In this document: piece after piece, positions 5,929 through 51,500 of the stretch | Layout: each line of letters opens with the position of its first letter | Position numbering within the stretch: the first letter of the stretch is position 1 | Assembly (NCBI GenBank): GCA_025617745.1 | Contig: CM046858.1 | Coordinates: 52,645,925 to 52,709,924 of the forward strand | From: Heliocidaris erythrogramma | Taxonomy: Eukaryota > Echinodermata > Echinoidea > Camarodonta > Echinometridae | DNA: 64,000 nucleotides | Direction: 5' to 3' | Made by a program: the position numbers and the translations under genes | Notes under the pieces: generated by a model | Seen by the model: only the letters and a program-made list of their open reading frames with translations | The model's database searches: none | What the model was told of the DNA's origin: nothing

Positions 5929-5990
5929 TATTATGACGGAATAAACCGCATTGTTAGGTGTCGACCTAATGTACCCTTTAGTAAAATATA

Positions 5991-6036: not shown

Positions 6037-6037
<1 letters not shown>

Positions 6038-6040
<3 letters not shown>

Positions 6041-10207: not shown

Positions 10208-10240
<33 letters not shown>

Positions 10241-13839: not shown

Positions 13840-13842
13840 CGT

Positions 13843-15169: not shown

Positions 15170-15661
15170 TTAAAGGCCAAGTCCACCCTAATATCAAGTT
15201 GATTTGAATAAATAGAGTAAAATTAAACAAGTGAACCGATGATGTCACACACTCACTTTTCCTTATGTATTTTATTATATGAAATTTCAAATATTTCAAT
15301 TTTTATAGATGTGATAATAAAGAATCCCTTCCTTGTATGAAAATAAGTTACAATAATGATGATTTTACATGTTCCATTATGGAGTCAAACCATGTTTTAC
15401 ATTATTGAAGCAAAAAAATGAAATATATGATATTTCATATAAATAAAATACATAAGGAAAAGTGAGTGCATGACATCATCTGTTCATTCATTTGCATACC
15501 GCCCATGTTATGCATATCACTGTTTCATGAAATAATGCAAAACTTGAAAATGCCGTAACTTTCTTATTTTACATCCAATTTTAGTGAAATTTTCACTGTT
15601 ACGCTTGTTTAATTTTACTCTATTTATTCTAATTAACTTGATATTATGGTGGACTTGGCCT

Positions 15662-15665
<4 letters not shown>
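15170..15665. mobile_element. TTAA-flanked MITE (AGGCCAAGTCCACC ends), 496 bp
   Basis: The element lies between TTAA at 15170-15173 and TTAA at 15662-15665. The ends are inverted copies: AAAGGCCAAGTCCACCCTAA on the left, and the right end reversed reads AAAGGCCAAGTCCACCATAA, continuing through AATAAATAGAGTAAAATTAA on both sides. TTAA duplications point to piggyBac- or Kolobok-type transposition. Nothing is coded. Confidence 0.85.
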
Positions 15666-15694
<29 letters not shown>

Positions 15695-25377: not shown

Positions 25378-26392
25378 ATGGCTCGTAGAATCATGGATCT
25401 AGTTGAACTGCGTCGTCAAATAAGAAAAGAACGCGTCTTCCGAGACAGGAGAAATCCATTAGACTTCTTTGATGATGATAAGGTGTATGAGCGGTATAGA
25501 TTTACCCGTGAAGGCATAATGCACATTACTGACATAGTGGCACCAGACATTGAACATGACACTGTCAGAAACCATGCGCTGTTACCATATCAGCAAGTGC
25601 TAATTGCGCTGCAGTATTACGCAACTGGAACATTCCATAATGTAGTTGGTGATCCACTGTAGGTATATACACCGAAGTACTGCAAATCGCGCCATCCATC
25701 GTGTCACTAATGCATTATGTACGAGACTGGATGATTTTGTCAAGTTCCCTGATGAGAATACTATTGGCGAGATCAAGGATGGCTTCTTTAATATGAGACG
25801 CTTTCCAGGGGTCATTGGATGTGTTGATGGTACACACATATGGATTGAGCGACCCCATGAGAACGAGGTAGACTACGTGAACAGGAAAGGCTACTCCTCT
25901 ATCAACGTTCAAGTAATCTGTAATCATCGAGGACAGTTTACAAACATTGTTGCTAGATGGCCTGGTTCAGCTCACGACAGCAGAATTCTGAGAAGCAGCC
26001 AAGTCTGGGACATCATGGAGGGCGAAATGTTTCGTGGATATATCCTTGGTGATAGTGGTTACCCATGCCGCAACTGGTTAATGACACCACTCTTGAATGC
26101 CCATACAGCACAAGAACGACGCTACAACTCTGCTCATAAAGGCACTAGAGTATTGGTGGAGCAGACGATTGGAAGATGGAAGCGTCGGTTCCACATTTTG
26201 CATCTACAGAGTCGATTGAGAAGTGCTGAATCAACTTGCAAAGTCACAGCAGCAACAGCGGTGTTGCACAACATTGCAGTAGACAGAAATGAACCATTAC
26301 GACCTGGCATACCTCAGCCTGAAGAGGATGGCTACAATGGTGAACTCAATGGGCCAAGAGCTAGGGCAATGCTCATACGTAATAAGTTTTAA
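25378..26392 (+). pseudogene. Harbinger transposase (HARBI1-like), one frameshift
   Basis: The N-terminal part (from MARRIMDLVELR at 25378 to VVGDPL at 25662) is the helix-rich region with FTREGIMHITD. The frame then shifts by one base near 25655-25675. The second part starts at about 25675 with HRSTANRAI and holds the catalytic triad: first D in GCVDGTHIWIE, second D in ILGDSGYP, and the E in VEQTIGRWKRRF. LHNIAVDRN near the end is also typical. Combined length is about 335 residues, normal for the family. The enzyme would cut and join the element ends together with the Myb-like partner. Except for the single shift, the sequence is remarkably well preserved, which implies recent activity. 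Confidence 0.9.
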
Positions 26393-26890: not shown

Positions 26891-27851
26891 TTACAAATTA
26901 AAATATACTGGATCATTACTGCTGCCACTTGTATTTGCAAGTTGTTGCTGCAATAGCGCAATTTGCAGCTTGAGTTTCTCTTGCTTTAGTAGCAAGTTTT
27001 CTTTTTTTAGAAGAGCATTTGACCGTTCAATGTCAATTAGAGCACTGAAGGATTCATGCTGCTTGGCCTTCTTCTCTGCCGGAGTTTTCTTCTGGGCTGG
27101 TGTTGAGGTTGGTGGATCACTTTCCTCATCTGAACCTGCCGGGTCATCTTCAAAGACATCGCCTGTAGAACAAAATTTAATAGCCCAAAAGATATGCTAT
27201 AAATATGTTGTTTAAATTGACAACATTTTAATACCATTGGTATATGCAAAATTAAGTGAAACTTAGGAAGGCAACAATAATAGCTTTTACATCAATTATT
27301 TTGTTTACAATAATATAAGTTCATGTAATAAGCACAGACGTGAAGTTCATATTTAGCAATCCAACAGTACAAAGAACAATTAATAAAGAACTTATATCCA
27401 CTCACCTAATTCTTCATCATGAACACTGGCCACTGGTGCTTCCCCTCGCTTATTTTTAGATGTCGATGCTCCAGATTCAGCCCCTTGCAGGCCTTTGAAA
27501 CCCGGTGTATCAGCACAAAGATCTAATATTTTCTGTTCAGCGGCAGCGGGACTTGGGTCCTTTGGGGGATTTCCTATGCCAGTAGCTGTCTTTGCTTTCT
27601 TCTGAGACATTACACATTCTCTTCCTGCAGTCCTTAATTTGCCAAGCTTGGTTTTCAAATCACTCAAAGACCTCTCCACTGTGAATCTAGCTTGATGTTG
27701 GTGTAAAATCTCAGCCCAAGATTCCTTCTTTTTTCTGTTGGTGTTCGCATCTTTATGTTGTGCATCTATGACATGTTTAAACATATTTGTCGGCCAAGAA
27801 CAGGTTTTTGTCTTGAGTAAAATTAATTTTTCTTGGACGCTTGAGACTCAT
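26891..27851 (-). pseudogene. Harbinger Myb/SANT-like partner protein (NAIF1-like), two exons, one frameshift
   Basis: Exon 1 starts with ATG at 27851 (MSLKRPRKINFTQDKNLF) and, after a one-base shift near 27780, continues KHVIDAQHKD and WAEILHQHQARFTV with a following LKTKLGKLR, an arrangement typical of Myb/SANT-like DNA-binding domains of this element type. It ends at a GTGAGT donor (27405). Exon 2 (27162-26891) begins after TTGTTCTACAG, keeps the phase (one base plus two), and encodes an acidic linker followed by a leucine-rich coiled coil (KENLLLKQEKLKLQIALLQQ) up to TAA. In the family this partner binds the element and brings the transposase to the nucleus. It is convergent with the transposase, about 500 bases away. 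Confidence 0.8.
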
Positions 27852-31055: not shown

Positions 31056-33210
31056 GCTTCGCTCCCTCGCATGTGAAATGTTGCGTCCAAATAATTGAAA
31101 AGAAAAAATGTTGCGCTTCGCGCGGGAAGGGGGAAAATTCCCCCTGTTACATACAGTGCAGTATTGCGTCCAAAATAACTGAAAAGCAGCCAGGGCGGTG
31201 AACTAACATTTCGCCCCCCAAAAAGATGCTAAAACGCGCGGGAAGGGAGAAACTCCCCCTCCCTGCACCCACCCCTGTTACATACAGATTACGTCCAAAT
31301 AACTGAAAAGCAGTCAGGCGTCGAACTATAACTTTCCGCCAAAAAAAATTGTTTGCTACGAGCCGTTTATCTTTCTCTCAAATTTGCTAAAAATGTCAGA
31401 GCTTTCGCGCTTCGCGCGGGAAGGGGGGGGGGGGGGGGGAACTCCTCCTCCCAGCACCCACCCCTGTTACATACAGTGCAGTATTGCGTCCAACTATCTG
31501 AAAAGCAGCAGGGCATCGAACTAACTTTCGGCCTTTAAAAAGGTGTTACGAGCCGTAATTTGCTGTAAAATGTAAGAGCTTTCGCGCTTCGCGCGGGAGG
31601 GAGGAAACTCCCTGCTCCCTACACCCACCCCCTTGGGCGCACGCTTTGCGTGCTCATCACCAATTTTGCACTCCTAGCTTGCCCCACAACAGCCCCCCCC
31701 CCCCCCCCCTAAAATGAAATCCCAGCTATTTTTATTTATTTATTTATTTATTTATTTATTTCTGATATTTATACAGGTTGGCTCATATCACCAATTTGGT
31801 GGTCTTCCATGAGGCCCTGTTTGGTAACAATAAAACAAATAACATCAACAATAATCAATATATATAAATACACAAGCATAAACACGTATAATACACATTA
31901 ATCGGTATCCTCATTAGTTAAGTAATCATTCAGTAATATTCATTGACTATTTACAAGAATTTTCGAATCGAATTTTAAATTAAAGATTATTTATTAGCAT
32001 TGTAAACTGCGAAATAATCAAATTAAAATATGGATGATAACCACACATCAAAATGAGGGGAAAATAATTAATTAACAACACATATACCAAAGAACTTGCT
32101 ATGCATAATATCCCCATATAGTTCACCCTAGGTACGCCACTGGCTTCGCTCCCTCGCATGTGAAATGTTGCGTCCAAATAATTGAAAAGAAAAAATGTTG
32201 CGCTTCGCGCGGGAAGGGGGAAAATTCCCCCTGTTACATACAGTGCAGTATTGCGTCCAAAATAACTGAAAAGCAGCCAGGGCGGTGAACTAACATTTCG
32301 CCCCCCAAAAAGATGCTAAAACGCGCGGGAAGGGAGAAACTCCCCCTCCCTGCACCCACCCCTGTTACATACAGATTACGTCCAAATAACTGAAAAGCAG
32401 TCAGGCGTCGAACTATAACTTTCCGCCAAAAAAAATTGTTTGCTACGAGCCGTTTATCTTTCTCTCAAATTTGCTAAAAATGTCAGAGCTTTCGCGCTTC
32501 GCGCGGGAAGGGGGGGGGGGGGGGAACTCCTCCTCCCAGCACCACCCCTGTTACATACAGTGCAGTATTGCGTCCAACTATCTGAAAAGCAGCCAGGGCA
32601 TCGAACTAACTTTCGGCCTTTAAAAAGGTGTTACGAGCCGTAATTTGCTGTAAAAATGTAAGAGCTTTCGCGCTTCGCGCGGGAGGGAGGAAACTCCCTG
32701 CTCCCTACACCCACCCCCTTGGGCGCACGCTTTGCGTGCTCATCACCAATTTTGCACTCCTAGCTTGCCCCACAACAGCCCCCCCCCCCCCCCCTAAAAT
32801 GAAATCCCAGCTATTTTTATTTATTTATTTATTTATTTATTTATTTCTGATATTTATACAGGTTGGCTCATATCACCAATTTGGTGGTCTTCCATGAGGC
32901 CCTGTTTGGTAACAATAAAACAAATAACATCAACAATAATCAATATATATAAATACACAAGCATAAACACGTATAATACACATTAATCGGTATCCTCATT
33001 AGTTAAGTAATCATTCAGTAATATTCATTGACTATTTACAAGAATTTTCGAATCGAATTTTAAATTAAAGATTATTTATTAGCATTGTAAACTGCGAAAT
33101 AATCAAATTAAAATATGGATGATAACCACACATCAAAATGAGGGGAAAATAATTAATTAACAACACATATACCAAAGAACTTGCTATGCATAATATCCCC
33201 ATATAGTTCA
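31039..33210. repeat. near-identical tandem duplication, 1087-bp unit
   Basis: Unit A is 31039-32125 and unit B 32126-33210. Both start CCCTAGGTACGCCACTGGCT and end CCCCATATAGTTCA. Differences seen are a few single-base indels (for example AAGCAGCAGGGC versus AAGCAGCCAGGGC) and different lengths of the poly-G and poly-C tracts. Each unit contains three to four decayed subrepeats with CGCTTCGCGCGGGA and the 3' UTR of a LINE. The right boundary of unit B lies five bases past the LINE stop codon. Either a very recent duplication or an assembly artefact. Confidence 0.9.
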
Positions 33211-34187
33211 CAGCTTACATCTCCTCTGCAGATAACAGAGCTTTTAGAGTGTATTTGAAACTGTTTAAAGTAGGCAACATTTTTATAGAAGTTTCAAGTT
33301 GGTTCCATACTGCAATTCCAGATATAAGGGGACTATGTTTGTATGTGTCCGTCTAAATTTAGGTACACGCAATGTATCTCTTACAGCATGTCTTGTGCAG
33401 TGATCATGTAGAGAGCTGACATGTTGTAAATCTTGTTTTAAGTATTCTGGTGCCACGCCATGCATTGCTTTATACATCATCACTGCACGTCCAAACTGGA
33501 AACGTGTCTGAATAGGCATCCAACCTAACCGACTAAACATATCTTTTGAGGATACATCGAATCCTTCTCCCAACACTATACGGGCAGCCCGTTTTTGAAC
33601 CTTTTGTAGTTTAATAGTTTGTCTTTGAAATCTTTCGGACCAAACAGAGGAACAATAATCAAAATGAGGAAGGACGATGGAATTATATAGAAGTTTCAGA
33701 GACCTGGTTGGAACATAACTTTTTGCTCGCTTAATTACACTAATATTTTTTGAGCAGTCTTAATAACTTTTTCCACATGTTCCGTCCATCGCAACTCCTC
33801 ATCGATCATGACACCTAGACACTTGGCAACTTTAACTCTTTTCAGACAACTGCCGTTTAGTGTGACAGAAAAATCCTTTACACTATTAAGAATTGATCGT
33901 GGTCCAATAAGCATCACATTTGTCTTATCAGCATTAAGAACTAGACGGTTTTTTGTTACCCACGAAAAAACATTTTCTAAACCTTTTGTTAGCTTTCGCT
34001 CTACTTCTGCAACACTTCTTCCGTTAACTGTTAGAGTGGTGTCGTCGGCATACATATCAACAATACCTTCATCAATACATTTTGGTAAGCTATTAATGTA
34101 GATAGAAAAGAGAAGTGGCCTAAGAATTGAACCTTGTGGGACACCCATCACAATTTTTGAGGAACTTGAAGTGGTCCCTTTAAAAGG
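32815..34187 (-). pseudogene. 5'-truncated LINE (CR1/L2-like), reverse transcriptase half and 3' UTR
   Basis: Minus strand. It opens inside the reverse transcriptase: GVPQGSILRPLLFSIYINSL (about 34148-34090), then the catalytic block MYADDTTL, then LNADKTNVMLIGPR. A shift near 33745 continues with PTRSLKLLYNSIVLPHFDYC and LGWMPIQTRFQFGRAVMMYK. Another near 33315 leads to VWNQLETSIKMLPTLNSFKY and a stop at 33217-33215. The 3' UTR runs to an (AAAT)n-type tail at 32814-32846. The 5' end is lost near 34187, where a poly-C and a MITE fragment begin. Endonuclease is absent. The 3' UTR is also present in the neighbouring duplicate unit (31730-32120). Confidence 0.85.
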
Positions 34188-36539
34188 TTGGATGCGGTTG
34201 GATACTTCTGCCCCCCCCCCCCCCCCACCTATTGAAAAATCCTGGGTACGCCTGTGCCTGTAGACATTGCCTGATGGTTTGCACGGGATTGAACTTCAAC
34301 AAATCCATCCAAGCAATCGATTTCATGTGAGTATAACGTAAAATTGGAAGTTTAACATACATTTTAAATTAATTTTGTTCATTGTTTTTAGTGACATTGA
34401 GGGGTGTCGCAATGAAAGTCTATGTGTCTTTGTCAGACGGCTGCACGGCGTTTGGTCGGGCTACAGCTCCGGTACCAGATTGATAAGCCAAGGAGCTCGT
34501 ACAGCTAACGTAAACCCATGCTGGGTGTTCGGACAGGTTGGTTTACAGGACAGATCGTTTCCAACTACTAGTAGATCTGATCTGTAATTTTAAACATTTT
34601 TGCATTCAGTATTCGGGAAATCGCTTAAAATGTATGTTGGGCATTATCATGAATAAATATTTATCTTGGTTAGTGCTATTCCATGCATATTTTTTTAAAG
34701 AAATCCAATGGCAAACTTCAGTTATATGGACCCCCCCCCCCCCCTTCATGCTACTGAATGTAATTTTTTTTAAGTGTTTTTTTAATACTTTCCTGGATAT
34801 TCAGAAGGGCAGGGAGGTGTGGGCTGTTCACAGGTATATGTTTGCAGTAGATATATCTACAAACTCTTATTTTCAGTCTTTCATTCAGATCCGTATATAC
34901 TCGCCTAAGAAAACTGTGCGATAGTCTGTTATGGATACATTTGACTAGTCATTCAATTTTACTTGATGATGGAGCACACACAGTGATGCCAGAAACATGT
35001 AAATAGATCTACACTCACCTACAGGTAAGTATCCTCTTTCTTCACCCTCCATGTTTACTTGAGTGATGTGCAATTATAGAACAGGAATAAAACAAAGAAA
35101 TTTTGTATTTGGAGTTGTGACTATTTAACAAGTTATTAGAGTGATAGAGAGTACATGTAAAAAATAAAGAAATGAAGTATAACAAAAATAAAATGAAGCT
35201 TGTTTATTGCCGCTCAGGTCTATTCCATTAGAGTTTTTGTCATGCAAGAGCTTGACAAACAGGGGCATCGCTAGAACATTTTGAATGGGGGGGGGGGGGT
35301 TGTGACACCCAAATTTGCCAACAAATTTTTAGGATGTGATCATTTTGAGAAAATATACCACGAACACTTTGATGATTTACCGTAATGAAAATTTTTTTTC
35401 CCTTTTCAGATGATATGATAAGCTGATATGACTTAGATATTATCAAGCTTCCAGAATGTGAGGCTATAGCCCAATATTAAAAATGTCTTTAGAAAATAAA
35501 AAGAGAAAAAAGGAAAGAAGAAAAAAAGAAACCCCCAAACAAAAATCACTGACGTGAAGGGGTGGGGGCATGCCACACTCTTATGACAAGTATTACGTCT
35601 CCCCTAATCAATCCCCCGTCCAAGGAGACAAAATTAAATCTGTTCATTGCTTCATCAGTCTTCAATCGATAGCATGATCCTGCTATTCTGAAGATCCAAA
35701 AAGGCTTCTCCCCACCTTTCTCTGTCCTTCTCCCACATTAATTTTGTTATGTTGATCATATAAGTATATCATACTCATAGAGTACATGTACTGAACATTT
35801 TACTCTTCAAAGCACTTCTATGGTTTCACAGTGCCCCTCATTTGTCCGATTGTAGTATTGGAAATCTGTCTAACCATCCAACCGCATAGGCCTATACCCC
35901 GCCCCCGCACTATTCCCAGTACAGTGCATATCTTGACGACTATTAACCGAAATTAGTTTGGAAAATGTGACATGGGCGTAAGGGGATATTTTCGCTACTG
36001 GGGGTCCAAACATTGTCATGAATGATTGCATTTCCTCGAGAGCGAGAAATAAATTTATTGGACCTGCGGGCACTCCGCTGCCCGAAAAAAATGAGGCGGT
36101 GGCCCTTACCCGAAAATAAAAACAGAGTGGCGGGCGCTGAAACCAGCCCCTGCCTCGTACGGCAATAATTGTGAATGACGACAGGGCTGTATTTCCTCCA
36201 CTCCGATCTCTCTTCCTCCTTAGGCAACGTCTCTGGTGTAGAAAGCTGATCATATGGATTCGTTGTTTCGTCCATGATGTTACAAAATGTGCGACCTCCC
36301 CTCCCCCTTTTAAATGCCTTTTCATTTTGTTTCCTCTTTCTCTTTCTTTATTGTCAGGCAAAAACATTTGTTATTCATGTATGTAGGATTACCATGCCAC
36401 AATCAAAATTGACAATTGCACTGAATTCGGTCTACGTCGTCGATCGTATGTTTATTGTTGGTAATTCTACTCACACACGATGTCGTGACTACCAGTGACC
36501 GGCCGGCCGCCAGGCGCTCAAGCTCTCTCTAGCGCCCGT
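34188..36539. other. interval without supported gene
   Basis: Contents: a poly-C and a MITE-end fragment (ATCCTGGGTACGCCTGTG, 34205-34258), poly-C near 34731-34744, poly-G near 35287-35299, and otherwise mixed sequence. Minus-strand frames at 35870-36367 cross C-rich sequence, overlap others and show no domain. Confidence 0.45.
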
Positions 36540-36541
36540 TA

Positions 36542-38243
36542 CACTCTTAGAACAGGTGGTAAAATAACATGTGGTTAAACAGTTGTGGTAAGAATATGTG
36601 TCAAAATGTACACATATCTGTGTAGAAGCATGAAACAAGGGTACACAGCATGCGAGTTAAACGTTTACACCTGCACCGCGGTAAAAAAGAAACCCGATTC
36701 TGGTCAAACTTCGTCCACATGTCAAAATGTTACCCCATTTGTGGTAATCATCAACACACTTGGACACGATGACAAAAGAGAGTGGGCAAAATATACAGCT
36801 CCTCATTGTACCCTCCACAATTGTTCTGGTAGAAGAACATCCCTTCATTGCTATTATGTAAAATAAGTAGAACCGTGAATATGCATGTGACACCTGTTCT
36901 ACATTTTTTTTACATAATAGCATTAGCAATGAAGGGATGTTCTTTGTCTACCAGAACCAGTGTGGAAGGTACAATGAGGAGCTGTATATTTTGTCCGCTT
37001 CTTTGTTTGCCATGTTCATAGTTCTAGTGTGTGTGTATATAGGCGCGAAACGCGGCCGGGTACGATCACATGCAGTGCAGTGGTGAAGCTACACTACAGT
37101 TCATCGTCATCATGGAGTCGTTGCTGAGATCGTGGGGGATGCCAGCCGATGTCATCTCTTCATTTAATTGTAAAACATTCACATTTTCATTATATTAATT
37201 TTATTATTGCATCAGAATCTATGTTATAGACCCAGAGCACAAATCAGAGTTGATTGCACGGCGGAGGAGGAGCCGCGGGCGGAACTTCCCGATTTACACG
37301 TGTGCACCAATACTTTCATAGCCAGCCAAAAATGCAATGCAGTTAGCTCAATTTTTGTCCAGATTTATTCCTAAGTATCTATAGTGTGACGCCACCATTA
37401 TAATATAATTATGTCTAAATAATATGTAAATCATAATTTTGTTATGTGAAAATCAACCTTTCAGATCATGTTATATGGTTTGAAAGTCTGTTGTAACATT
37501 GCTTTGTAGTTTGTTTTGTTTTCCATTATTGAGATGCAAGTTTTAAGAGGAAATGCGTTTGTCAAAACTATATCAAAATGTTTGAAGTTAGTGTTTTTTC
37601 CAACAAATTCACAAAACAAGAAACATACATCCAGGTTTTCGCCCTTTTCTTTTGGAATATTGACCAAATTAAAAAAAAAAAGAAGCTTGTATATTGTTAC
37701 TTTTATTGTGATTGATCCACATTCCAGCATTTAGAGTATAATTATATGTAAATTATATGTAAATAATTCAACCTTTCTGATCATATTTAAATACTGTAGT
37801 TTAAAATCTGTTAACTTTTTTTGGAACTGCAAGTTTAACAAAACATAATTTTCATTGTGCATTTGTCTTGTAGTCTCAACTCATCCTGGTGTAGACATTT
37901 AGTGTAAAAAGTGACACATTGGGGTGTGGTAAAAAGTATGGGGTAAATTCTGTACCACTTAAGGGGTAAAATAATAACACAGCTGCGGGGTGAATTGTTA
38001 CACAGGCTGGTAGTGGTTAAAAGTTGCACAGCAAAAAGGGAACATGGTCGTTTTGGGGTAAGATGTTACCCCACCCTTTGGTGTTAACATTTTACACATT
38101 AGATGTGTAAAACATAACACATGTATCAAGCAAAATCTAACCACTCATGGTGTGTAATGGTTTACACCACAGACGACCATGTTCCCTTTTAACACATTTT
38201 GGTGTTATTTTTTAACACCAATGGGGTAACTTTTTTAAGAGTG
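36542..38243. mobile_element. 1.7-kb element with TA target duplication and CACTCTTA ends, carrying a SAM-type first exon
   Basis: It is flanked by TA (36540-36541, 38244-38245). The left end is CACTCTTAGAACAGGTGGTA and the right end reversed is CACTCTTAAAAAAGTTACCC. Near both ends are many words of the type GTGTAAAA, TGGTAAAAT and GGTGTTA in both orientations (subterminal repeats). An inverted repeat with arms of about 80 bases lies at 36785-36995. At 37112 a first-exon-like frame is homologous to exon 1 of the gene in the neighbouring 8.7-kb element. No transposase is visible. The ends and organisation match the elements at 4619-5928 and 38500-47243. Confidence 0.8.
37112..37169 (+). CDS. 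orphan first exon of a SAM-domain-type gene
   Basis: ATG at 37112 opens MESLLRSWGMPADVISSFN and a GTAAAA donor follows after one extra base (phase 1). The pattern E-x-L-x-x-W-G-x-x-A-x-x-S-x-F matches exon 1 of the gene at 43703-46976, which also ends in phase 1 at a GTGAGT donor. It is the expected start of a SAM domain (helix 1). A TATA-like TATATAGG lies about 80 bases upstream at 37033. Later exons were not found within this element, so it looks like a deletion derivative. Confidence 0.5.
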
Positions 38244-38245
38244 TA

Positions 38246-38497
38246 GTATTGCCAAGGAGTTATCACTCCTAATTGGTATTGCAAGCTCTGTCAACATTAC
38301 ACCCCACTGCGCAGGGCTAGTTTCTGGTGTGAATTCGGGGCAGGTTTCAAGCCACAACTGCAGGCCAATGTAAGTAGACGTATACGCTGTGCCGAAAGAG
38401 GGAGGTATGCCGACCGTTACAAACTGAAGCGTCATGGCGTACACTTAGGCGAGGCATCAAAAATGGCTATAACATGCTCGCTGCAGCCAGCTGCACT
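38246..38497. other. short spacer between two related elements
   Basis: About 250 bases of ordinary composition separate the two TA-flanked elements. No gene was recognised. Confidence 0.4.
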
Positions 38498-38654
38498 TAC
38501 ACTGTTAATCCTTCTGTGTAAATTTTTAAACAACCCGCTGTGATATATATGAACCTATCAACTGTTGTTTAAGAACTTAAACAACCCCGGTTGTGTAAAT
38601 TTTTAAATAGCGGTTGTTTAAATTTCTTTCACAATTATTGTGTAAAATTCAATT

Positions 38655-38947
38655 AAAACAACGGTTGTGTAAATATTTTACACATATATTGTTTAAATAT
38701 ACATTTAAACAACCCAGTTGTGTAATGATTTTACACATATATTGTTTAAATGTCAATTTAAACAACCCAGTTGTGTAATGGTTTTACACATATATTGTGT
38801 AAATATCAATTTAAACAACCCAGTTGTGTAGGTGTTTTTTCACAAAAGTTGATGAATACTTAAACATTAAATGTTGAAATTATACACAACTAGATGTGTA
38901 AGATATTTACACAATATATGTGTAAAACCATTACACAACTGGGTTGG
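38655..38947. repeat. subterminal array, ~53-bp unit in direct and inverted orientation
   Basis: Units beginning AACAACCCAGTTGTGTAATG lie at 38708, 38761 and 38814, with a diverged one at 38657. Each is partly self-complementary (TTACACATATATTGTGTAAA). From about 38880 to 38947 the same unit appears in reverse (ACCATTACACAACTGGGTTG). Such arrays probably serve as transposase binding sites, by analogy with other elements with subterminal repeats. Confidence 0.75.
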
Positions 38948-39981
38948 TGTCACAAATACACATACACACATACATACAAACAATATGAAGATTTTGCATG
39001 TAATCTCATTTATTTTCCTTCAGAAATTGCTTTTTAACATTTACAAACGTATTTACATGTGTGAAAACAATAGTTGATCCCCTACTGCATAGCACCAAAA
39101 ACAATAGTTGATCCCATACTGCATGGCACCATTTCATTATTCTCCCAAAATGGCATATAAAGTTCCTGCCATGGAGAAACATGTGAAATGAAGATTTGTA
39201 TAGTCTTTTGCATTACTTCTTTCCCCTCATGTCTCTTATACCTTTGATACCTTGGAAATTTTTAACTATTGTATGGATTTCTTATTCCTACTAATATGTA
39301 GCTGTTTAAGACTATCTTATTACAGACCTCAATAAACACAATACAACATATAGGAGATAGAAAAATGCATAAAAACACCAGTTAAATAAAATCTCGAAAT
39401 TTCAGGATTCTCAAATTATCATATATGCAAATATATAAGTTAAAATCAAATTACAGGAAATTTATCTTGTACATCACATTAATTATATTTGATCAAAAGA
39501 TAAAAAAAATCCAGAGCAAATAATTATTACACGTCCAAGTAGATCCTTGTCATTTGATTTGAGAATTGTTGGTCACACGATATGTAATAAGTACTCCATT
39601 CAACGAACTGTGCACTGTGGTTTAATTTTTGTGTGCAAGGTGCTTCCATTTGGTACCATACTGTGACAAAGATTTACTTTGAAAAATTAGAAAAAAAAAC
39701 ATTTGTTTTTTACAATGGTACAAATATTTTAATCGGTTGATATATATTTAATGTTCCATTCAAGTCAACTTTACTTTGTGGATTGGAACTTTCAAAATCT
39801 GTCACCTCATGAAAATATTTGTACCACTGATTTCATGAACATTCATTATTTGTATACCACTTTAGTCAAATGCTGAAACAACTATATTACAAAGATTTTC
39901 AGAAAATTTGCATGAGGTCATTAAATTGATTGTCAGAAAATAAGTAAAAACTAGATGGATATTCAACCAAACGAGGTCCAA

Positions 39982-40612
39982 ATATATGCCTCCGCATAGT
40001 GCATGATCTATAAAATTTGACCTTAAATATAGGGGGAAAAAGTTTGTCTTATCATACTCTACCCTCATACAAAGTTTGAAGTTCATATCTCCATTAGTAT
40101 GCAACATATGGCATAATAAAAAAAACATTTTTTTACAACATAATGAACTACATGACTTTTGACCTTGTGACCCCAAACTATTTGTTCACAATTTTGTATT
40201 CACATTACCATCATACCAAGTTATTAGAAGTTCATAAGTCCATTAGTAGGTAAAATATAGCATAAAAACCATATTTTTACAAAATATTGACCTCTGTGAC
40301 TTTTAACCTCGTGACCCCCAAAATATTTCTACAAATTTGTATTCACATAAACTACCATCATACCAAGTTAGAAGTTGATGTCAAATAGTAAGTAAGATAC
40401 CGCATAAAAAAACATATTTTCACAAAATGACCTCTGTGACCATTGACATTTGACCCCATGACCCCCAAATCCAATCAAACTATTGTCCACCCAGGACAAG
40501 TTTCATGTCAAACCATCATACGGTTTTTGAGATATCAACAAAAACAAAACGGACGGACGGACAGACGACCCAAAAACATAATGCCTCCAGCCACTTCGTT
40601 GATGGAGGCATA
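39982..40612. repeat. MITE-like repeat with ~120-bp internal units and GGAGGCATA ends
   Basis: It begins TATGCCTCCGCATAG and ends ATGGAGGCATAAAC, short inverted ends. Internally the block ATAGCATAAAAACCATATTT ... GTGACCCC is repeated at about 120-bp intervals (near 40100, 40255 and 40395). A (GGAC)n-like stretch, GGACGGACGGACAGACGACC, lies at 40549-40568. Confidence 0.6.
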
Positions 40613-40874
40613 AACAAAAAGCATGTAAATTGATTATCAGAAAATAAGCATAAAAGTACAAGCATGTACTTCTTCACATATTTACTCTATAACCTTACTA
40701 ATTTTTTTACGTCAAACAGACCAGCTGCACCAAGATCCTATATCCACCACCACCACAAGCTTGCAAAATAGCCAAAGAACATCAGGGTCAAGGTCTTTAC
40801 ATATTTTGTACCCCCAAAACAATTGAGATTACATACATCACTCAGTATAGCAACATTCAGCTCCATTGTATTAA

Positions 40875-41028
40875 CCCTAAAACATTATGGGGGGGGGGGG
40901 GGGGGTCTGATAGGTTGAATCAACCCCCCTCATTTCACGCAATAAATCCATAACGTGATACAGTCAACGGCCACGTCTGAAGGGGGGTTGATTTGATTCC
41001 CCCCCCCCCCCCCCCCCACCTCCCCAGG
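40875..41028. mobile_element. piggyBac-like MITE fragment (TTAA/CCCTA) with poly-G and poly-C
   Basis: It starts TTAACCCTAAAACATTATGG. The inner part CAATAAATCCATAACG resembles the family copy at 41877. The other end is not clear. Confidence 0.45.
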
Positions 41029-41876
41029 TCATAGAAAGACCAAAAAAGCAACCAAAATGTGCAATAGCATTTCATAAAATTAATCTATAGTATTTCATAA
41101 ATTTCAACATCAACACCATGTTTAACTTCTAGATACATGTAAATTTAGCACAGGAAGTATATGAAAACACGAATAAATTTCAATTTAGAACTTCAAATGT
41201 TGATACAAAAACAACTTGTTATCAATGTTGACACTTGACACATCTGCATTATGTAAACTAGATTTGATTTACGAACTCAACAATGTAAAATGTACAAACA
41301 CATTCATGTTAAGAACAATTATATGAAGGCCTCATTGAAAAATTGTACAAGTATAAAATGTGATTTCACACTGATCACTACTACGTATGAACATACAATG
41401 TAGTTTACACACATTCTTTCAAGTTAAAATTTTCCAATGAACTATTTGTAAGAGAATGTATCCTATAAAGCATCAAATTAAGCCCTTATCATACAGAAAA
41501 TGATGCAATTTTCTCATTAGCAACACTTTATTTTTCAATGAAACTACACTCGCAAACACGTATCAGTGAAGTAACTTTCAGCTATATACATTTTCTTATT
41601 TATACCATGTTAATGGGAGGGTTCCCCGACATCGGTATTGCTCAATACTATGGGCATGGTTGTGAAACAACTTGCCAAGTGTGTAAGCGCACTGCTTGTA
41701 TTTTCCAATGGAGAGGCACATACCACACGCTTCGTGCGCGCCTTTAAATAGCGTCCTCTTGAATGTCGGGATCCATTCCCTTTAAAGCACAGAGATAGTT
41801 TTGGTAAAACATTTTTTAGAATAACAGTTTTTCTGTACTTTCCCAACTATTTCTAAACAACTTGGCTTTAGTTTAA

Positions 41877-42396
41877 CCCTATTCAGCCCGGGGGGGGGGG
41901 GGGGGCTGAATCAGTCCCCCCTAGACGTTTCGCACGATAAATCCACAACGCGAAATGCTACCGCCGCGAGACTTCATGACTTTTTTCTTTCATTCATCGC
42001 GCAACTTTTGAGACCAAATTCAGCGCGCCCGGGCGTAAGGTCGCGAAGCTTATTTGTTTGTTGTATTTTAAAGAGATGTGTGAATAAACTTTGAACTTAA
42101 ACTTTGAACTTTGAAGTGCATCAAACTAAAGAAATCTGCCCAAAATCAGAAGGCTTGGAGTTGTTTCAAGTAATTTATAAAGGAAAGAATACATTTTTGC
42201 ATATATTAGCATAATTTAACTCATAAAATAAACAAAAGAAACAAAGACAAATCTAACAATACAATCTTGTAGAGTACATGTGCCTCTACCAACATGCGCG
42301 ATCGACGGCCGAGATCTTAGGGGGTGCTGAATCAGCTGAATCAGCCCCCCCCCCCCCCGCCTAGTCAACCTCCAAAATAGCCCGGGCAGAATAGGG
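41877..42396. mobile_element. piggyBac-like MITE, complete, TTAA-flanked
   Basis: TTAA at 41873-41876 and 42397-42400 border CCCTATTCAGCCCGGG and its inverted partner CCCGGGCAGAATAGGG (15 of 16 pairs). TTAA duplications and CCC-starting ends are hallmarks of piggyBac. The body contains the shared family segment GATAAATCCACAACGCGAAA and GGTCGCGAAGC. No transposase is encoded. Confidence 0.8.
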
Positions 42397-43702
42397 TTAA
42401 ACCTAAGTTAGATCATAAATTCACAACTATCCCTTGTAAAGTATAGCAGATAACATGCATAGCCTTGTTTGGAGGCCCTCCAATTAAAAAATAATTCAAT
42501 GGTATTCAGAGCAAACTCTTACTACTCGAAGAATTGCATTCATAATCCTGATCAATAATGCAAAGAAAATGTTAAGAAGTTTTTTTTTTCACATTTATCA
42601 AACTATCTTTGTGCTTCAAAGGTAAAGTCCAAGGTAAAAATCACCTCGGCCTTTTTTAATTCTTACAGAGTGTGACAAATTTTCATTAGTTAAGGGGAAA
42701 TTTCTTGAAGTGGCGAAGAATCTTTTGAGATTCACTAACGTTTTATAGATGTATGTTTGCGAAAATTGGGTATATGCCCGTCATTTGAGACATTAAGCGA
42801 TATGTTAGCAATATTTTACATGTAGTTGACGATTTTTAGCACTTGATCATTTGTTAATGTTAGTGATATCTTCTGTGAAGATTATAGTAGCAACTACTAG
42901 TATTTCCAAATTCTTTGCCACTATTTGTAAATATTTGGGACCTTTTGCAAACTCTTGCAAAAGTACTAGGTGAATCTGGTCACATGAAAAACCAAAGAAG
43001 GATGGGCAAACTCCAGATTTCTTCTGATCAGTGTCGAAAGAGGTTTCGATATGAAAAAAATGAACATACTTATAAAGGGTTTTTCTTATTTTTGTTATGC
43101 AAAATCATTCAAAAAAGTAGCATAATTCCCAGGAGGTGCAGTCAGTATATATTGGTGTACACATGCCCATCAATAAAAAAAGTAAAAAGGGCTACTTTTT
43201 CAGCGATGTACGCATAATGTGCATTACATGTTTAAGGGGTCCAAAAACTGAGATTTTCTGCAAAAAGTGGTCCTTTAGAAGGTTCAGAGCAAACAAGTTC
43301 AAGGATTAAATTTTGATATTCTGAGTCAACCTGTTTTAGCGGATTGATTTTGCCAAGAAGTCGGTGGCTACATCCTCCTTTAGAGGTGCTTTTTCATCAA
43401 GGTTCATTGCGGTTTTAGAGGGTAATTTTCAAACTCAGGGAAGTGCATGGGTACACTAAAATATAGTGACAACAATCAAAGTAAAATGTACCCTAACATG
43501 TAGCCCTGCATTTAAATTGTTACGTTGTATTTTGTATTAAAGCCCACAGCACAAAGTGATTTTTTTAAAAGATATTGTAATCATTCTTTGGGATCTGACG
43601 AAGGTTGATGTATATTTTCTATTGAAATCAGTGTGAAATTCAAATTTGAAAATTTTGCCCAAAGCTCTGTTAGAGATTTTGGTCCGGACTTGCCATGTAA
43701 GA

Positions 43703-46700
43703 TTACTCCTGATTCTCAATGTTCCCGAGCCACGTACGGAAATTAAGGAGACCAACTCCACTCAGGGTACCTGGTGGCATTTGGTAGACCAGGTGCTGAA
43801 GCATCTGCCACACAGGAGAGCATTGAGCTTGATAGTCTATGTCCAGTATGTACGTCAGCTTGAAACATACATCCACGGCTTGTGTAATGGAGGTGCATTC
43901 GACTGTGTTGCGTTCGATGATCACAAAAACCTGATTTGGTTTCCATCGTGAGCCCCCAATAATCAGTAGAAAAGGCTGGGGTCTTTCCTTCCCATCCAGC
44001 GCTTGAAGGTAATGGTCAAGGGAAGTTCCTTCCTGTGTTACAAGAGAATAGAGACGAATTATGCTAAAAAAAGGTCTGATAAATTCTGTGAAAAAGAAAA
44101 AACAATTGGTAAAAACAAAGAAATACATAAGAATTTACCAAACAATACAAAATGAAATATTTTGTGCACAAAATCATTTTAAAATACAAAGGGATTTTAT
44201 ACTTAAAGCGAGGAGATAGTTTTGGTAAATATCGGAAAACGTAATGGAAAGGTATAGCTTCCAATGTAGTTAACATGCAAGGATATATCATAACTTAACC
44301 CTATCTGGACTGGGGGGGGCTGATTTGCCCCCCCCCCCCCCCTCGACGTTTCGCGCAATAAGTCTGCAACGCGAAATGCTGCAGCCACAAGATTTTATGA
44401 CTTTTTTCTTACACTTATCGCGCAACTTTTGAGACCATTTTGGCACGCTCGTGTGTAAGGTTGCGAAGCCACGCCCGTTCGAAAATGTGATTAGCCCAAA
44501 TGTGATTAGCCTAAATGGTGTTAGGCTAACTGGTGATTGGACCAAGTGCAAATAGCTCAACCGATAATTCACCGAATAGATTTTAAGCAATACACAAAAT
44601 ACAATGAAGATTGGGCAATTTTCTTCCTTTTTTTGGGGGGGGGGGCGTTGTCACTCAGAAACCATACTTAAACATACAACATGAGGTATTCTGCAAATTT
44701 AATGAACCTTGTCCTCTGACTTTTTGTCCTACAGACTCCATATCTGAATACAAAACTTACAGGTTGGAAATCTATGAAGGACTTCAAGGCGGCCTGTACT
44801 GAACATTTTCCACGCATTCCCTTGCTACGTCCAGCGAATAATGTTGGCAATAGGCTGAAAGCTAATGTCTGACATTCACCTGTTGATTAAATTGGAATGT
44901 AAAAAACAAATATATATTACAAGTACATACTATACAAATAATGGATGTTCATGAGTTCGATGGTAGAAAATTATTGCATGAACTGAAAGATTTGTAATGT
45001 CCTATTGAACGACAGGGCTGCACTCTCCAAAATTTAGGGAGGGGGGGTACATGCCCCTTGTGCCCCCCCCCCCCTTGGATCCAGCCCTGCTAACAAGTGA
45101 AGCCAAGCATGCCTGACCACCCACTATCCATGGCATGCTGCGTGACTATTCTTTTGTGTGCATACATAGTAATTACATACCTATAGTTTTTGAAATAGCA
45201 CTGGCTTTGAGATGTACCAGTAAAAAAAGAACAGAAAAATCCTGGAATCTATGCAGTAAACAAGAAACAAAGTTGGTTATGTTATAAAATGTCTTTCATT
45301 CACATGTAGCTTCATTGTTAAATGTTCCCCTGTGTGTGTTCGTGTTGAGTCTACTAATGATTTTTTTATTTGAAGGGCCATATTTAATCCTAATGCCACA
45401 TACTGCACACAGACTTTACAACAAGCTTTCTTTGAAAAATACTGCTTCAGTTAGGATACTATTTTTCATCAAATGTTGAAAAAGTTTATGGTAACGTACC
45501 ATCAGACAACTCTGACTTGTCAACATCAGGAATGTGTGTGTGTAATTGGGTTTTTACAGACGTGTATCAATCAGATATGATTATTTACGTCTGGGACCGA
45601 CCTTTAACGTCACCATCCGAAAGACGTGACTCAGGAATGTGTCCACTCCACCCCTTTTCAATGTCTTCTGCGTAGTCAAAGATGCGTTTGGCCATACGTG
45701 GCCATACTGCATACAGATTCCCTTCGTTACCCATACTGATTGCTAGACGAAAGTCTTCTTGAATCTAAAATAAAAATGAAAGATGGATAATTATCTACCA
45801 GTAATCATTTAACATGAACAAGTTAATGAGTATTTGCATACAATGCGTGATAAGAACGTCCTCGACTCCTCGCCATCTGTTCTGCCATCTATGTATATTG
45901 GCACAATAAGTTCACAACACGAAATGTTACCAGCGCAAGAATTCACAACTTTTTTTTTTCATCGCACAACTTTTGAGAACAAAATTAGCATACCCGCATG
46001 TACATGTAAGATCGCGAAGCCATGCTAAGTGTTCTTGGCAAGAAATTATTCCTTATCATTTTGATTAGTTTTAGTCAAAATAATGCAATTTATGTGAATT
46101 TATTTCAAAATCAATATTTACATTGGATTTGTACAATAAATCAAGGTTTCGAGCAATTTGGATGAATTTTTTTATCGGGCGTGGCTTCGCAACCTTACGC
46201 GCAGGCGCGCTAATATTGGTCTCGAAATTTGTGCGTTGAGTGAAAGAAAAGACATGGAATCTCGCGGAGGTAGCATTTCGCGTTACGGACTTATCGCACA
46301 AATCCACTCTAATATCAAGGCAATTTAGCATTTTCGCAGGGTTAAAGACTGGTAAATTGGTGGGGTATTCTAAACTTGTTCCAATACATGTAAGTTAAAC
46401 TGTAGTAAATGTGCTTTCCGATGATTGTTTTTATTTGTTGTGATAATTAATTGTTGTTTGTTTACAAAATCGGCGATTAAACTTTTCGTGCGCGAAATTC
46501 CATGCCGCTATCATATACCGATAATGTTATGTACAAAGTAAATGTCCGAATTAATAAACATTGAATATTAAATGGTCATATTAAATGGTTAAAAAGACGC
46601 TCGTAGGCTTCGAGCTAGGCTAAGTTAACCAACTACGCTGTAGCCCCAGCGCTTGCGCTGGGTTCTCGCGTCCTGCGCCGGGGCTAGACCAGGCTAAGAA

Positions 46701-46976
46701 CACAGTACGTACGAGCTCCACGTACTTACACACACACACACACACTCGCCCATCACTCGGTGTTGCGAGTCTTGCGACGCGATCAGCACATTTGAAGCAC
46801 ATTTTTGTACCCCCGTTCTCATGCAGTTCAGTATAAAATGTAGGTTAAGTACAATCCACGCAATCTATACAACATTTTCCATCATAAAAAATACTTCCAG
46901 AAATTAACTCACCTTCGAATTTGCTGATGTTGGCTTCAAAGCCCCATTCACGGAGCCGCTCGATGACCGGTTCCAT
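43703..46976 (-). CDS. SAM-domain (SAMD3-like) gene within the 8.7-kb element; four exons seen, at least one missing
   Basis: Exon 1 (46976-46913) begins MEPVIERLREWGFEANISK, the start of a SAM domain, and ends in phase 1 at GTGAGT. Another exon (45764-45602), after TTTATTTTAG, encodes FRLAISMGNEGNLYAVWPRM and AKRIFDYAEDIEKGW and ends in phase 1 at AAAG/GTCGGT. The next (44879-44761) restores the frame, encodes TLAFSLLPTLFAGRSKG and SVQAALKSFIDFQP, and ends at GTAAGT. The last (44032-43703), after TTGTAACACAG, encodes PFLLIIGGSRWKPNQVFVII, ITQAVDVCFKLTYILDIDYQ and a stop. Phases of the last three exons fit each other. From exon 1 to the 45764 exon the phase does not fit, so an exon with the rest of SAM and the central region is lost or unrecognised; MITEs occupy that interval. 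CCAATCA and CATAAAAG lie upstream (about 47030 and 47018). The architecture resembles SAMD3-like proteins; function unknown. Confidence 0.65.
44299..44480. mobile_element. piggyBac-like MITE copy, one end, in an intron
   Basis: It starts TTAACCCTATCTGGACTGGG at 44295 and shares the family body (GCAATAAGTCTGCAACGCGA, CGCAACTTTTGAGACC, TTGCGAAGCC). The opposite terminus is not visible. It lies between the last two exons of the SAM-domain gene. Confidence 0.6.
45012..45089. mobile_element. 78-bp hAT-like MITE (CAGGGCTG ends)
   Basis: It starts CAGGGCTGCACTCTCC and ends GGATCCAGCCCTG, with a poly-G and a poly-C block between. The target duplication is not clear. Confidence 0.5.
45880..46025. mobile_element. 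piggyBac-like MITE fragment, plus orientation
   Basis: The segment CACAATAAGTTCACAACACG to GATCGCGAAGCCATGC aligns with the body of the 41877 copy. Termini are lost. It lies in the interval where an exon of the SAM-domain gene is expected. Confidence 0.5.
46140..46345 (-). mobile_element. piggyBac-like MITE copy, reverse orientation
   Basis: Reading minus, it starts TTAACCCTGCGAAAATGC (TTAA at 46342-46345) and contains TGCGATAAGTCCGTAACGCG and GTTGCGAAGCCACGCC. This is the fifth member of the family within 5.5 kb. Confidence 0.55.
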
Positions 46977-47245
46977 TTTGCAAATTTGATTATAAAAAAA
47001 AAGTCTGTCTAACTTTTATGAACGGTGATTGGCTGTGTCTAGTCACGTGGAATTTTTCTTTACACAACAATTGTTGACGGGGCCGCTTTGGCGGGATTTT
47101 AAAATCATAATGCTAAAACACGAACTTTTATGTTTACACAACCGGTTGTTTACCCAAAGATCGGGCGCATTAAACATGGTTGTGCAAAAAAAATACACAA
47201 CCTTTCTTACACAGCGTTTCCGTTACACAGCAGTCTAACAGTGTA

Positions 47246-48599: not shown

Positions 48600-51500
48600 C
48601 CTCATTTAACCAGTAGCCTCCATCACTGATGCAATGTCACCAGACCGAATTTATTGATCATGTTATAGACTCTATAGATATTATCCGTTCCCGACACCCT
48701 AGCGCCGGTATAGTCATCCTTGGCGACTTCAACAAGGTGAACACTGTTGAAATGTGCCATGCTTCTTCCCTCAAACAAATTGTGGATAAGCCAACGAGAA
48801 ACAACGCTATCCTTGACAAAATCCTGACAAATATCCATCCGTTTTAACCAAAAATGCGACATCAAGAGCCCCATTGGCAGTAGCGATCACAATACTGTCC
48901 TCTGGTGCCCACGTCTTGAATATGCTTGCCGTCCTAACATCACAACAGAACGCAGAATAAGACCAATGAAGGACTCCGACATTAGATCTTTTGGAAGATG
49001 GATATCATCCTACCCATGGGATGAAGTTCATAGCGCTAGGTCAACCAATGACAAATGCAACGCATTTTACGACACCTTACAACCAGCCATGGAGCAACAT
49101 TTTCCCCTGAAAACAGTGCAACAATCCCACAACAGGGATAAGCCGTGGGCACTCCTCTCATTAAATCACTTATTAATGAGAGACAGATCTTGTTCTACAC
49201 GGGCCCTGAAGAAAAGTGGAAAAAGTCCAGAGACAAAGTCCAGAACGCCATCAAAGATGCCAAGGAAGACTTCTATGAGCATCGAGTAAAGCGATTGAAG
49301 AAGGACGACCCGGCAGCGTGGTATAAACATATCAAGGTGATGACGTCGTCTTCGCAATCCTCATCGCAGCTCATCCACGTCCCAGATGGAGATCAGTCTC
49401 GCCCTGTAACCATCGCCAATGTAATAAATAAACGCTTTGTTGATGTTGCTGCAGACATCGATGCACTCGACCGAGACAAATTGCCAGCTTTTCTCCCATC
49501 CCGTAGACCACCAAGGATTCAACCTTGGGAAGTCTACAGTGAACTACGGAAGATTGTCCCTGGGAAATCTGCTGGCCCTGATGGTGTCCCGTCCAAGTTC
49601 ATCAAGCTATTTGCTGTCGAGTTAAGCACCCCCCTTTGTGATATATTAAATGCATCTTTTTCAGAAGGTGTTGTTCCGGATGAGTGGAGAAGGGCAATTG
49701 TAGTTCCTGTACCAAAGGAACAGCCCCCAACATTAGAGAAGCTACGCCCAATTGCTCTAACAGACCATTTTTCGAAGATCGCAGAGCAATTCATTGCCAA
49801 ATGGTTGTTGGCTGATATTGAAACTCTCCTTGACAAGAACCAGTTCGGAAGCCGTTCAGGCAGATCAACAACCCATTATCTTGTGGACTTGGTCAATTTC
49901 TTGTGCAAAAATGCTGATAGACGTGAGAAGATAACCTCATTGGTTGTTGCTACAGACTTCTCAAAAGCATTTGATAGGGTGGACCACTCTATAGTGATGA
50001 ATAAACTCATTCAAATGAACCCTCGTGAATTTATTGTTCAATGGATTGCTGATTTCCTCACAGGGCGCACCCAGCGTACTCGGTACCGGGGTCACTTTTC
50101 TGATGAAGTATCACTGACAGCCGGTGTCCCACAAGGCACCAAACTTGGTCCTATACTATTTTGATCCTTGCCAATGATGCTTTGTCACAGAGTGGTCTGA
50201 GTTATTGGAAGTATGTTGATGACATCACGATTGTAGAGTCAAGACGGCGGGGTGCGCCTAGTGAGGTTCAGCAGACCGTTGACTCGTTGTCCCAGTGGTG
50301 TGCAACAAACAGTATGAAACTGAACCCTACTAAATGTTTCATTATGCAGGTTGATTTTGGTAAATATAATCGAATCCCTCCCAATGTTGTTCTTGATAAT
50401 CACACATTAGTAAAAGTCGGTACAATGAAAATATTAGGAATCCTCATTCAGGTAAATCTGAAGTGGGATGACCAAGTCAATCAAATGGTCAGTAAGGCGA
50501 ACGGTCGAATGCACATGATTCGATCCCTCATCCTATTCAGACTTCCGGTGAAGGACTTGATACTGATATACAAAGGGTTTATACGGCCATTATTGGAATA
50601 TGGAGTACCTGTTTGGCATCCCGGCCTAACAAAAGCTCAGGCCACAGCAATCGAAAGGGTCCAAAAGAGGGTGTTGAAGTTGATTTTGGGTCCTTCCTAC
50701 ATTTCATATGATAATGCCCGAAATGTTTCGAGTACGGATATGCTAGAAACCAGACGTGATCAAGCCTGCCTCAAGTTTGGCAAATCATTGTTACATTCTA
50801 GTAGTTTCCGAGACTGGCTCCCTGAGATAAATGATCCTGGTAGACAGTTGAGAAATTTAAAGTTGTTGAAACCCATTAGATGTAGAACTGAAAGATACAA
50901 GTCTAGCCCCATTCCCTTCATTGTTAAAACTCTAAATGAAAATTTGAATGAGAATTAAATTATCATTACTTCCCGCCTCTTGCCGTAGAAAACCCACTGA
51001 ACATTGAATGTAATCAATAAATTAATATTTTAATCTTGCCAATAAATCTGACCGGATCTAGCCGAACGAAGCACTTGTGGGTGATAAAAAAAGATTCAGT
51101 TTGGATTCCCCCCCCCCCCTTTCGGTTAGTACTTGTTTTAGTTATGTACTTGTGTATAAATAATTGTAAATGCCTATGAGTGTTTGTATTTGCTGGATCC
51201 GGTCAAATTTCTTTTTAATTTTTAATTGTATAATTTGTTTCCATACATATATTTTAATACATTGATTGATATGATTAGATGTAAATGTTATGATTTTATT
51301 ACATTATATATATACATATATATGTTTGTTCACATTCATTAATATCCCTATGTTAATATCTGTCTTTGAATGTATACACTTTGAAATATTTTATAAAATA
51401 TAATACAATATGGTGTTAAATATTTATGTACATCAAGAAAATAATTCCCACTATTTTAGCCATGTTTTTCTCCAAACACTTTATTTTGATTCAAAATGGT

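Follow-up and report, generated by a model that had tools for sequence, protein, structure and literature searches.

Two CACTSTTA elements and their first exons

The 64,000-nt stretch of the sea urchin Heliocidaris erythrogramma analysed here (assembly GCA_025617745.1, contig CM046858.1, positions 52,645,925–52,709,924; hereafter the window) contains two neighbouring DNA transposons, E1 and E2, each with a first exon of SAM-domain type. E1, on the plus strand, spans 36540–38245 including the TA on both sides (element 36542–38243, 1702 bp). E2, on the minus strand, spans 38498–47245 including the TA on both sides (element 38500–47243, 8744 bp), and its gene points inward from the right end. Perfect 8-bp terminal repeats (CACTCTTA / CACTGTTA) were present in both elements with TA flanking each side, and the termini read CACT(C/G)TTA (CACTSTTA). 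Two neighbouring TA-flanked CACTSTTA elements had been described in an earlier note on this DNA, and sequence inspection and computation confirmed them. The gap between them, given there as 1.4 kb, is actually 0.25 kb, as E1 with its TA ends at 38245 and the TA of E2 starts at 38498. The subterminal repeats reported in that note could also be verified, with 19 TTGTKTAA motifs in the terminal 900 bp of E2 vs 1 in the internal 7.8 kb. At the distal end of E2 they form an array of TTGTKTAA / TGTGTAAA in palindromic, 53-bp tandem units (38500–38950), and the gene-proximal repeats occupy 46794–47243. The subterminal repeats of E1 (TGTGTAA / TGG(K)0-2TAA) were found at its ends only, and an inverted repeat with 53-nt arms and a 113-nt spacer (36781–36999) lies between the element end and exon 1.

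Exon 1 of E2 (46976–46913, minus strand) encodes the putative first half of a SAM domain, MEPVIERLREWGFEANISKFE, and is followed by a phase-1 donor (G/GTGAGT); it lies 268 bp from the right end. The SAM-type exon 1 of E1 (37112–37169, plus strand) encodes MESLLRSWGMPADVISSFN, is followed by a phase-1 donor (T/GTAAAA), and lies 571 bp from the left end. A position-specific scoring matrix (PSSM) built from the first-exon regions of four non-window proteins (P0003, P0006, P0007, and P0009) was used to scan 1042 ATG-led peptides of at least 17 residues from both strands of the window. The E2 exon ranked first with a score of 30.0, which includes a slight circularity, as P0003 had been retrieved by a query containing E2 exon 1 (21 of 388 residues). 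The E1 exon, part of no query, ranked second with 27.2, a score that relies on an allowed one-residue gap, and the third peptide scored 13.5. None of 1000 first-order Markov sequences of 64 kb reached 27.2, the maximum being 26.25, or 23.75 if a phase-1 GT was demanded. The claim of a phase-1, SAM-type first exon in both elements was therefore upheld. Profile comparison of the exons had also been raised in the earlier note. The non-window matrix ranked them as the top two; Pfam returned nothing useful on single exons, or on the echinoderm proteins.

In both elements exon 1 is near one end and points inward, despite the lack of any blastn match between E1 and the E2-family copies described below. 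E1 is probably a deletion derivative from a family separate from that of E2. It is very improbable that the E1 exon is a chance resemblance in an unrelated short element with similar ends. The resemblance covers only 19 residues, with a one-residue gap in the alignment, and no further homologous exon could be seen in E1; set against this are the second rank among 1042 peptides against a non-window profile, the outcome of the 1000 simulations, the phase-1 donor in place, and a host element with the same kind of ends. A third element of this type, E3 (4617–5930 including the flanking TA; element 4619–5928, 1310 bp), has CACTGTTA ends, a TA duplication, and dense TTGGTTAA/TTGATTAA subterminal repeats (TTGRTTAA).

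The E2 family and its 24.4-kb copy

The terminal 200 bp of E2 occurred at 20 places in the source assembly (1.06 Gb, 26 contigs), window included, 14 of them at the top score with 100% identity. Ten genomic regions were read in addition to the window, and exon 1 with an identical protein sequence was present in 10 of these eleven. Both ends could be located in nine copies including the window E2, all nine with an identical exon 1 protein, and one further copy had a single intact end. The nine two-ended copies measured 24375, 11398, 7936, 11444, 9054, 9050, 8635, 8499, and 8744 bp. Their target duplications were 2 bp long without exception (TA in six, TG in two, CG in one). The TA duplication named earlier as a shared feature thus applies to E1 and E2, but the family is not strictly TA.

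The 24,375-bp copy has exon 1 at 270–333, reading inward from one end. The gene structures given here and below consist of splice sites predicted from the DNA sequence. A long exon (5374–8120) of this copy encodes, in frame, the second SAM half (ENEVDEDSFQLLDDELIKELFPKVGPRSKFIMKYREY), zinc-finger-like motifs, and a transposase. It is followed by a linker exon ending at 8618, which has its own ATG as in P0002, and then by seven further SAMD3-like exons up to 19084. The name SAMD3 is used here tentatively and agrees with a single UniRef label ("Sterile alpha motif domain-con..."). The frame of the long exon has 966 codons, and exon 1 joined to the long exon by the predicted splice gives 936 aa with no internal stop. 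The transposase motifs YSDD, GDN, CREC, HFLVH, and RYEGKHK occur in this order. Pfam analysis of this transposase gave DUF4218 at E=0.064, below the curated cut-off, and no Transposase_21. The motif TTGTKTAA was found 22 times in the 900 terminal bp vs 5 times in the remaining 23.5 kb.

Internal deletion accounts for the shorter copies. In the coordinates of the 24.4-kb copy three main junctions occur: six copies join 1039 to 16381, two join about 940 to 13936, and the window E2 joins 903 to 16539; several copies have additional gaps or inserts. Judged by its sequence, E2 of the window is an internal deletion of the 24.4-kb element. The stretch between exon 1 and the next recognizable exon in E2 (45765–46912, minus strand) holds the deletion junction, and the transposase and the middle exons (about 904–16538 of the 24.4-kb copy) are gone. 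Three SAMD3-like exons remain on the minus strand, each matching the Lytechinus pictus predicted protein P0001 by tblastn: exon A (IQEDFRL..., 45764–45614, E=1e-8) and exon B (GECQTLAF...FQP, 44879–44761, E=4e-13), both with splice sites, and the last exon C (EGTSLDHYL...ENQE and stop, 44032–43703, E=5e-57, 77% identity). The identities of the three exons to P0001 were 77% (exon C), 67%, and 44%, and their predicted splicing leaves an open frame of 199 codons. Exon 1 does not continue in frame into exon A, and the loss of the middle exons has thus broken the gene of the window E2. Pfam analysis of ten open frames in the distal 5 kb of E2 returned nothing useful. Also inside E2, at 41866–42407, is a stretch that resembles an insert, bounded by AACCCTATTCAGCCCGGG inverted ends and containing long runs of G/C; similar G/C-tract stretches occur elsewhere in E2.

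Of the nine other copies compared with the 24.4-kb copy, six had an identical exon C, among them the window E2 (100% over 330 nt), and three differed by one mismatch. Such near-identical copies suggest recent activity of the family. A genome search with P0001 produced 94 scored matches among 298 candidates. In the eleventh region (C12:29.2 Mb), whose last exon is 86% identical, neither E2-type ends nor a transposase match could be detected over the 30 kb that were read.

The E2 exons are related to predicted proteins of L. pictus and Asterias rubens. The A. rubens protein P0003 starts with MADVPELLEQWGFGDLVEVF, which is exon 1-like, joined to the same SAMD3-like gene. Further, residues 1–19 of P0001 (L. 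pictus LOC129263337) gave a tblastn match (E=4e-4) to the 3' end of the transposase exon read in a different frame, so the exons must follow the same order in L. pictus if the match is taken at face value. At least one annotated sea urchin gene, the P0001 model, thus seems to be a transposon gene.

That these elements belong to the Tc1/mariner or ISL2EU type is barely credible. TA does flank all three window elements, and Tc1/mariner elements are known to duplicate TA strictly, a rule violated by the CG and TG duplications of other E2-family copies. For ISL2EU (PHIS), the available part of the source gives an AT duplication and usually GG ends (PMC4482050), and this type was ruled out by the CACTSTTA ends and the TA, TG, and CG duplications. 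The transposase, moreover, has a CACTA-type pattern.

Diverged families and the pairing of transposase with SAMD3-like exons

A second family, with last exons 46% identical, occurred at seven places in the genome search and was read at C4:20.91–20.93 Mb. It has an exon 1 (PSSM 34.0), then a 973-codon frame encoding the second SAM half and a transposase, then SAMD3-like exons. The predicted spliced product has 942 aa and no stop, and the transposase is 45% identical to that of the 24.4-kb copy over 911 residues. This exon 1 recurs in a shorter copy on C10. Two copies have a common end (TA followed by CACAGAGAAAACACTGTTTAAA), from which exon 1 is about 270 bp away; the other end of this element was not found. 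Codon positions 1, 2, and 3 of the two transposases were 58%, 73%, and 39% identical with synonymous sites saturated, a pattern as would be expected under purifying selection. The motif region is 52% identical between the two families, with YSDD, GDN, CREC, HFLVH/HHMVH, and R(Y/F)EGKHK in both. In the second family, Pfam matches to Transposase_21 (E=0.038) and DUF4218 (E=0.033) appeared in the right order, weak and below curated cut-offs.

A third family, with a transposase 39% identical, was read for 1.1 kb at C2:61.02 Mb. Its second SAM half matched the sea cucumber protein P0009 (E=1e-11), as did those of the 24.4-kb copy (E=7e-10) and the second family (E=1e-11). A GTAAGT donor stands right after the SAM sequence, immediately upstream of the transposase, and, unlike in the other two families, an in-frame stop (L038:600–800) lies between the SAM exon and the frame that encodes the zinc fingers and the transposase. 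A SAMD3-like match lies 22 kb downstream of this transposase.

The identity of the domain was assessed from these relatives. P0009 has a SAM domain (Pfam SAM_1 20.1 bits, E=8e-4; best SAM chain of the PDB, E=0.005) followed by a SAMD3-like region, and P0006 likewise joins SAM (SAM_1 E=0.0011) to a SAMD3-like region, as does P0007 by alignment only. An N-terminal SAM followed by the same C-terminal region was thus seen in predicted insect and sea cucumber proteins, and the SAMD3-like regions of P0006, P0008, P0009, and echinoderm proteins could be aligned. The SAM of the second family scored 18.5 bits against the SAM_1 cut-off of 23 (E=0.0027) and matched the Bicaudal-C SAM in the PDB (E=0.0044).

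A genome search with the transposase gave 51 matches among 139 candidates. A SAMD3-like match was present within 40 kb on the same strand downstream of 14 of the 51 and upstream of 2, and 2000 trials of random uniform placement gave 0.09 rows on average and never more than 2; copies within one family are not independent in these counts. The paired matches correspond to 11 distinct loci and, by identity values, about seven families, with split matches counted once and C4:20.90 Mb left out, which shares its SAMD3-like hit with a nearer transposase. The long matches were paired in 11 of 24 cases, 9 of 15 at identities of at least 39% and 2 of 9 below, one of the latter being the doubtful C4:20.90 Mb row. 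The nearest clade therefore shows the pairing clearly, and for clades farther away it stays unproven. The second SAM half was reached by five matches (query start 8 or 9) besides that of the 24.4-kb copy itself, one of them the second-family copy read. In a subfamily with 52% identity (L030, L033), no SAM exon or transposase was found in the 9.2 and 5.0 kb read upstream, with the exon 1 matrix and the transposase used on L030 only and SAM peptides on both. On the strand of the L030 gene, 35 kb upstream of it, there is a transposase match.

Since SAM is encoded with the transposase in diverged families and 11 loci are paired, the SAM gene can be regarded as a component of the lineage. We consider it very probable that E1 and E2 are non-autonomous elements, shortened by internal deletion, that belong to an animal CACTA/EnSpm-like (CMCT) lineage whose own gene encodes a SAM domain. 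The earlier note had argued that a SAM gene belongs to the lineage and is not a chance capture, and this view gained support from all nine two-ended copies, the 24.4-kb copy, and the families with 45% and 39% transposase identity. Capture would mean that host SAMD3-like exons were picked up once by a transposon whose copies then spread. CACTA elements are known to capture genes, and SAMD3-like proteins are annotated as ordinary genes too, in echinoderms and insects. Such an origin is nevertheless quite improbable in view of SAM coding beside the transposase in three families, the 11 loci with a downstream SAMD3-like match, and the inward, end-proximal exon 1 that E1 has in common with the E2 family.

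Several observations weigh against the favoured reading. The putative membership of E1 stands or falls with its exon 1, and in E3 no SAM exon was present among the 25 best peptides of the matrix scan. SAMD3-like matches were missing within 40 kb downstream of 37 of the 51 transposase matches, although remote SAMD3-like genes may escape a search based on P0001. Among the transposase matches listed, one had 100% identity, the next, in two pieces, 78%, and the rest at most 47%, so the E2 family has one transposase copy among them; 4-kb pieces of three longer E2-family copies, taken at the place expected if spacing was kept, gave no transposase match. Pfam scores for SAM and transposase stayed below curated cut-offs. 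The E2-family SAM had no Pfam hit and matched SAM chains of the PDB only at E 0.23–0.73, behind an unrelated chain at 0.19, and its SAM identity therefore derives from its relatives. Structure models were of low confidence, with a mean predicted local distance difference test score (pLDDT) of 51 for the SAMD3-like protein, for which a PDB fold search gave no match with E <= 0.001, and 38 for the transposase core. Finally, in the E2 family none of the splice sites checked would connect SAM in frame with the SAMD3-like linker exon, so in this family SAM may belong to the transposase alone.

This last point bears on a further reading, in which the transposase alone has the SAM domain and the SAMD3-like exons form a separate downstream gene that may lack SAM. 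The single open frame for SAM and transposase in the 24.4-kb copy and the linker exon with its own ATG agree with it. We regard it as unlikely, given that in the 39% family a stop precedes the transposase and SAM is directly followed by a GTAAGT donor, its phase being that of the E2-family linker exon start, and that the predicted proteins P0006, P0009, and P0007 join SAM to the SAMD3-like region, with P0003 joining exon 1. As SAM and transposase share one frame in the E2 family but not in the 39% family, the protein carrying SAM may differ between families, or both proteins may carry it.

A PDB sequence search gave no match with the last exon or the transposase and three weak, unrelated matches with alignment A3; NCBIfam and PHROGs returned nothing useful, and a viral_contigs scan detected no relative.

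Transposon class, possible mechanism, and neighbouring features

In the part of the source available, the CMCT clade is described as having CA..TG ends, a 2–5 bp target duplication, and a transposase with D, D, and E residues in which C(2)C and H(3-4)H follow the second D and precede the E; its lineages mostly have CA..TG ends, and ESTA elements carry EnSpm-like transposases with TA duplications (PMC12730594). The CACTSTTA ends and the 2-bp duplications in all nine two-ended E2-family copies agree with this description. The transposase pattern agrees by motif only, in two families, with the catalytic residues assigned putatively. HVTDNH was tried as the H(3-4)H motif and dropped, as the second family lacks it. 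The clustered subterminal repeats of such elements were present in the 24.4-kb copy.

Spm elements have CAC..GTG ends and a 3-bp duplication. The elements described here differ from Spm/En in their 2-bp duplication, a second region that is SAMD3-like, and an encoded SAM domain. They resemble Spm/En in clustered subterminal repeats, one large gene whose accessory-protein part holds the transposase frame in an intron, and non-autonomous deletion derivatives, as far as the accessible text goes (PMC2613891). According to the same portion of that source, one gene of maize Spm gives two products, TNPD, with its frame inside intron 1, and TNPA, a protein that binds subterminal repeats; transposition requires both. 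The soybean CACTA element Tgmt* (20.5 kb) is described there as likewise very large, with one many-exon gene giving a transposase and smaller products, but it is a plant element with a 3-bp duplication and a different kind of accessory protein (PMC2613891).

Among animal elements, SmTRC1 of Schistosoma has, in the part of its description available, 2-bp direct repeats by the ends in 7 of 14 copies, alternatively spliced transcripts, and a CxxC in the transposase (PMC1636069). The animal host, the 2-bp repeats, and the CxxC are features in common, and its box A motif (D-X-L/M-H-X3-L-G) is partly matched here by DLMHDLYEG. Unlike the present elements, SmTRC1 has ends starting with CCC, and that part describes no SAM or SAMD3-like component. 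Like the elements here, ESTA has TA duplications, and the fungal CMCT lineages have C(2)C and H(3-4)H motifs and, in most cases, CA..TG ends; ESTA families differ in being fungal and carrying TET/JBP, and no SAM domain is described for them in the available part of the source (PMC12730594). Animal SAMD3-like proteins, in contrast to the elements here, are annotated as genes and are mostly uncharacterized, with no transposon link in the literature searched. Searches of an open-access library, whose scope excluded Repbase entries and subscription papers, gave no account of a DNA transposon with a SAM or SAMD3 gene. CACTA elements with spliced, multi-product genes are already known; a SAM domain and a SAMD3-like partner common to an animal lineage did not come up in these searches.

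The layout resembles that of Spm: the SAM exon lies near one end, the gene encloses a transposase frame, exons farther downstream encode a second protein, and the ends carry repeat arrays. From this likeness we infer an Spm-like mechanism. Alternative splicing would yield a transposase with or without SAM, together with a SAM and SAMD3-like protein, by analogy with TNPD and TNPA. The SAMD3-like protein would be the TNPA-like partner that binds the subterminal repeats. SAM domains of related solved chains (Bicaudal-C, ANKS) polymerise, and SAM–SAM contacts could bring both element ends and the transposase into one complex, which would give SAM a role in assembling the transposition complex. A function in countering host silencing, the other role raised in the earlier note, found no support in this analysis. 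Deletion derivatives such as E1 and E2 would retain the ends and the end-proximal exon 1 and be moved in trans.

A wider proposal, which we put forward tentatively as somewhat less probable than its opposite, is that animal SAMD3-like proteins, perhaps including vertebrate SAMD3, serve a CACTA-type transposon lineage as accessory proteins or arose from such proteins by domestication, with the shared SAM letting transposase and accessory protein polymerise on the end repeat arrays. If true, the SAM-sharing transposase and accessory protein would be the animal counterpart of plant TNPA and TNPD. The favoured reading itself provides animal CACTA elements with a concrete second component that has a recognizable interaction domain, in families diverged to about 40% transposase identity, and it predicts that many multi-copy animal genes labelled SAM-domain or SAMD3-like are transposon genes. 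With recent activity suggested by the near-identical copies, the roles of a SAM polymer and of the subterminal repeats in gathering transposon ends become testable.

Other features of the window were noted as well. Judged by eye, frames resembling a PIF/Harbinger transposase and its Myb/MADF-like partner lie at 25646–26392 (plus strand) and 27392–27847 (minus strand), and a 651-codon frame at 18556–20511 (minus strand) resembles a RING/B-box TRIM-type protein. Frames that by eye are similar to the reverse transcriptase of long interspersed nuclear elements (LINE) occur at 48828–50958 (plus strand) and 33283–34295 (minus strand). Further, one pair of tandem arrays is present at 31731–31903 and again at 32816–32988, 1085 bp apart, which suggests a local duplication.

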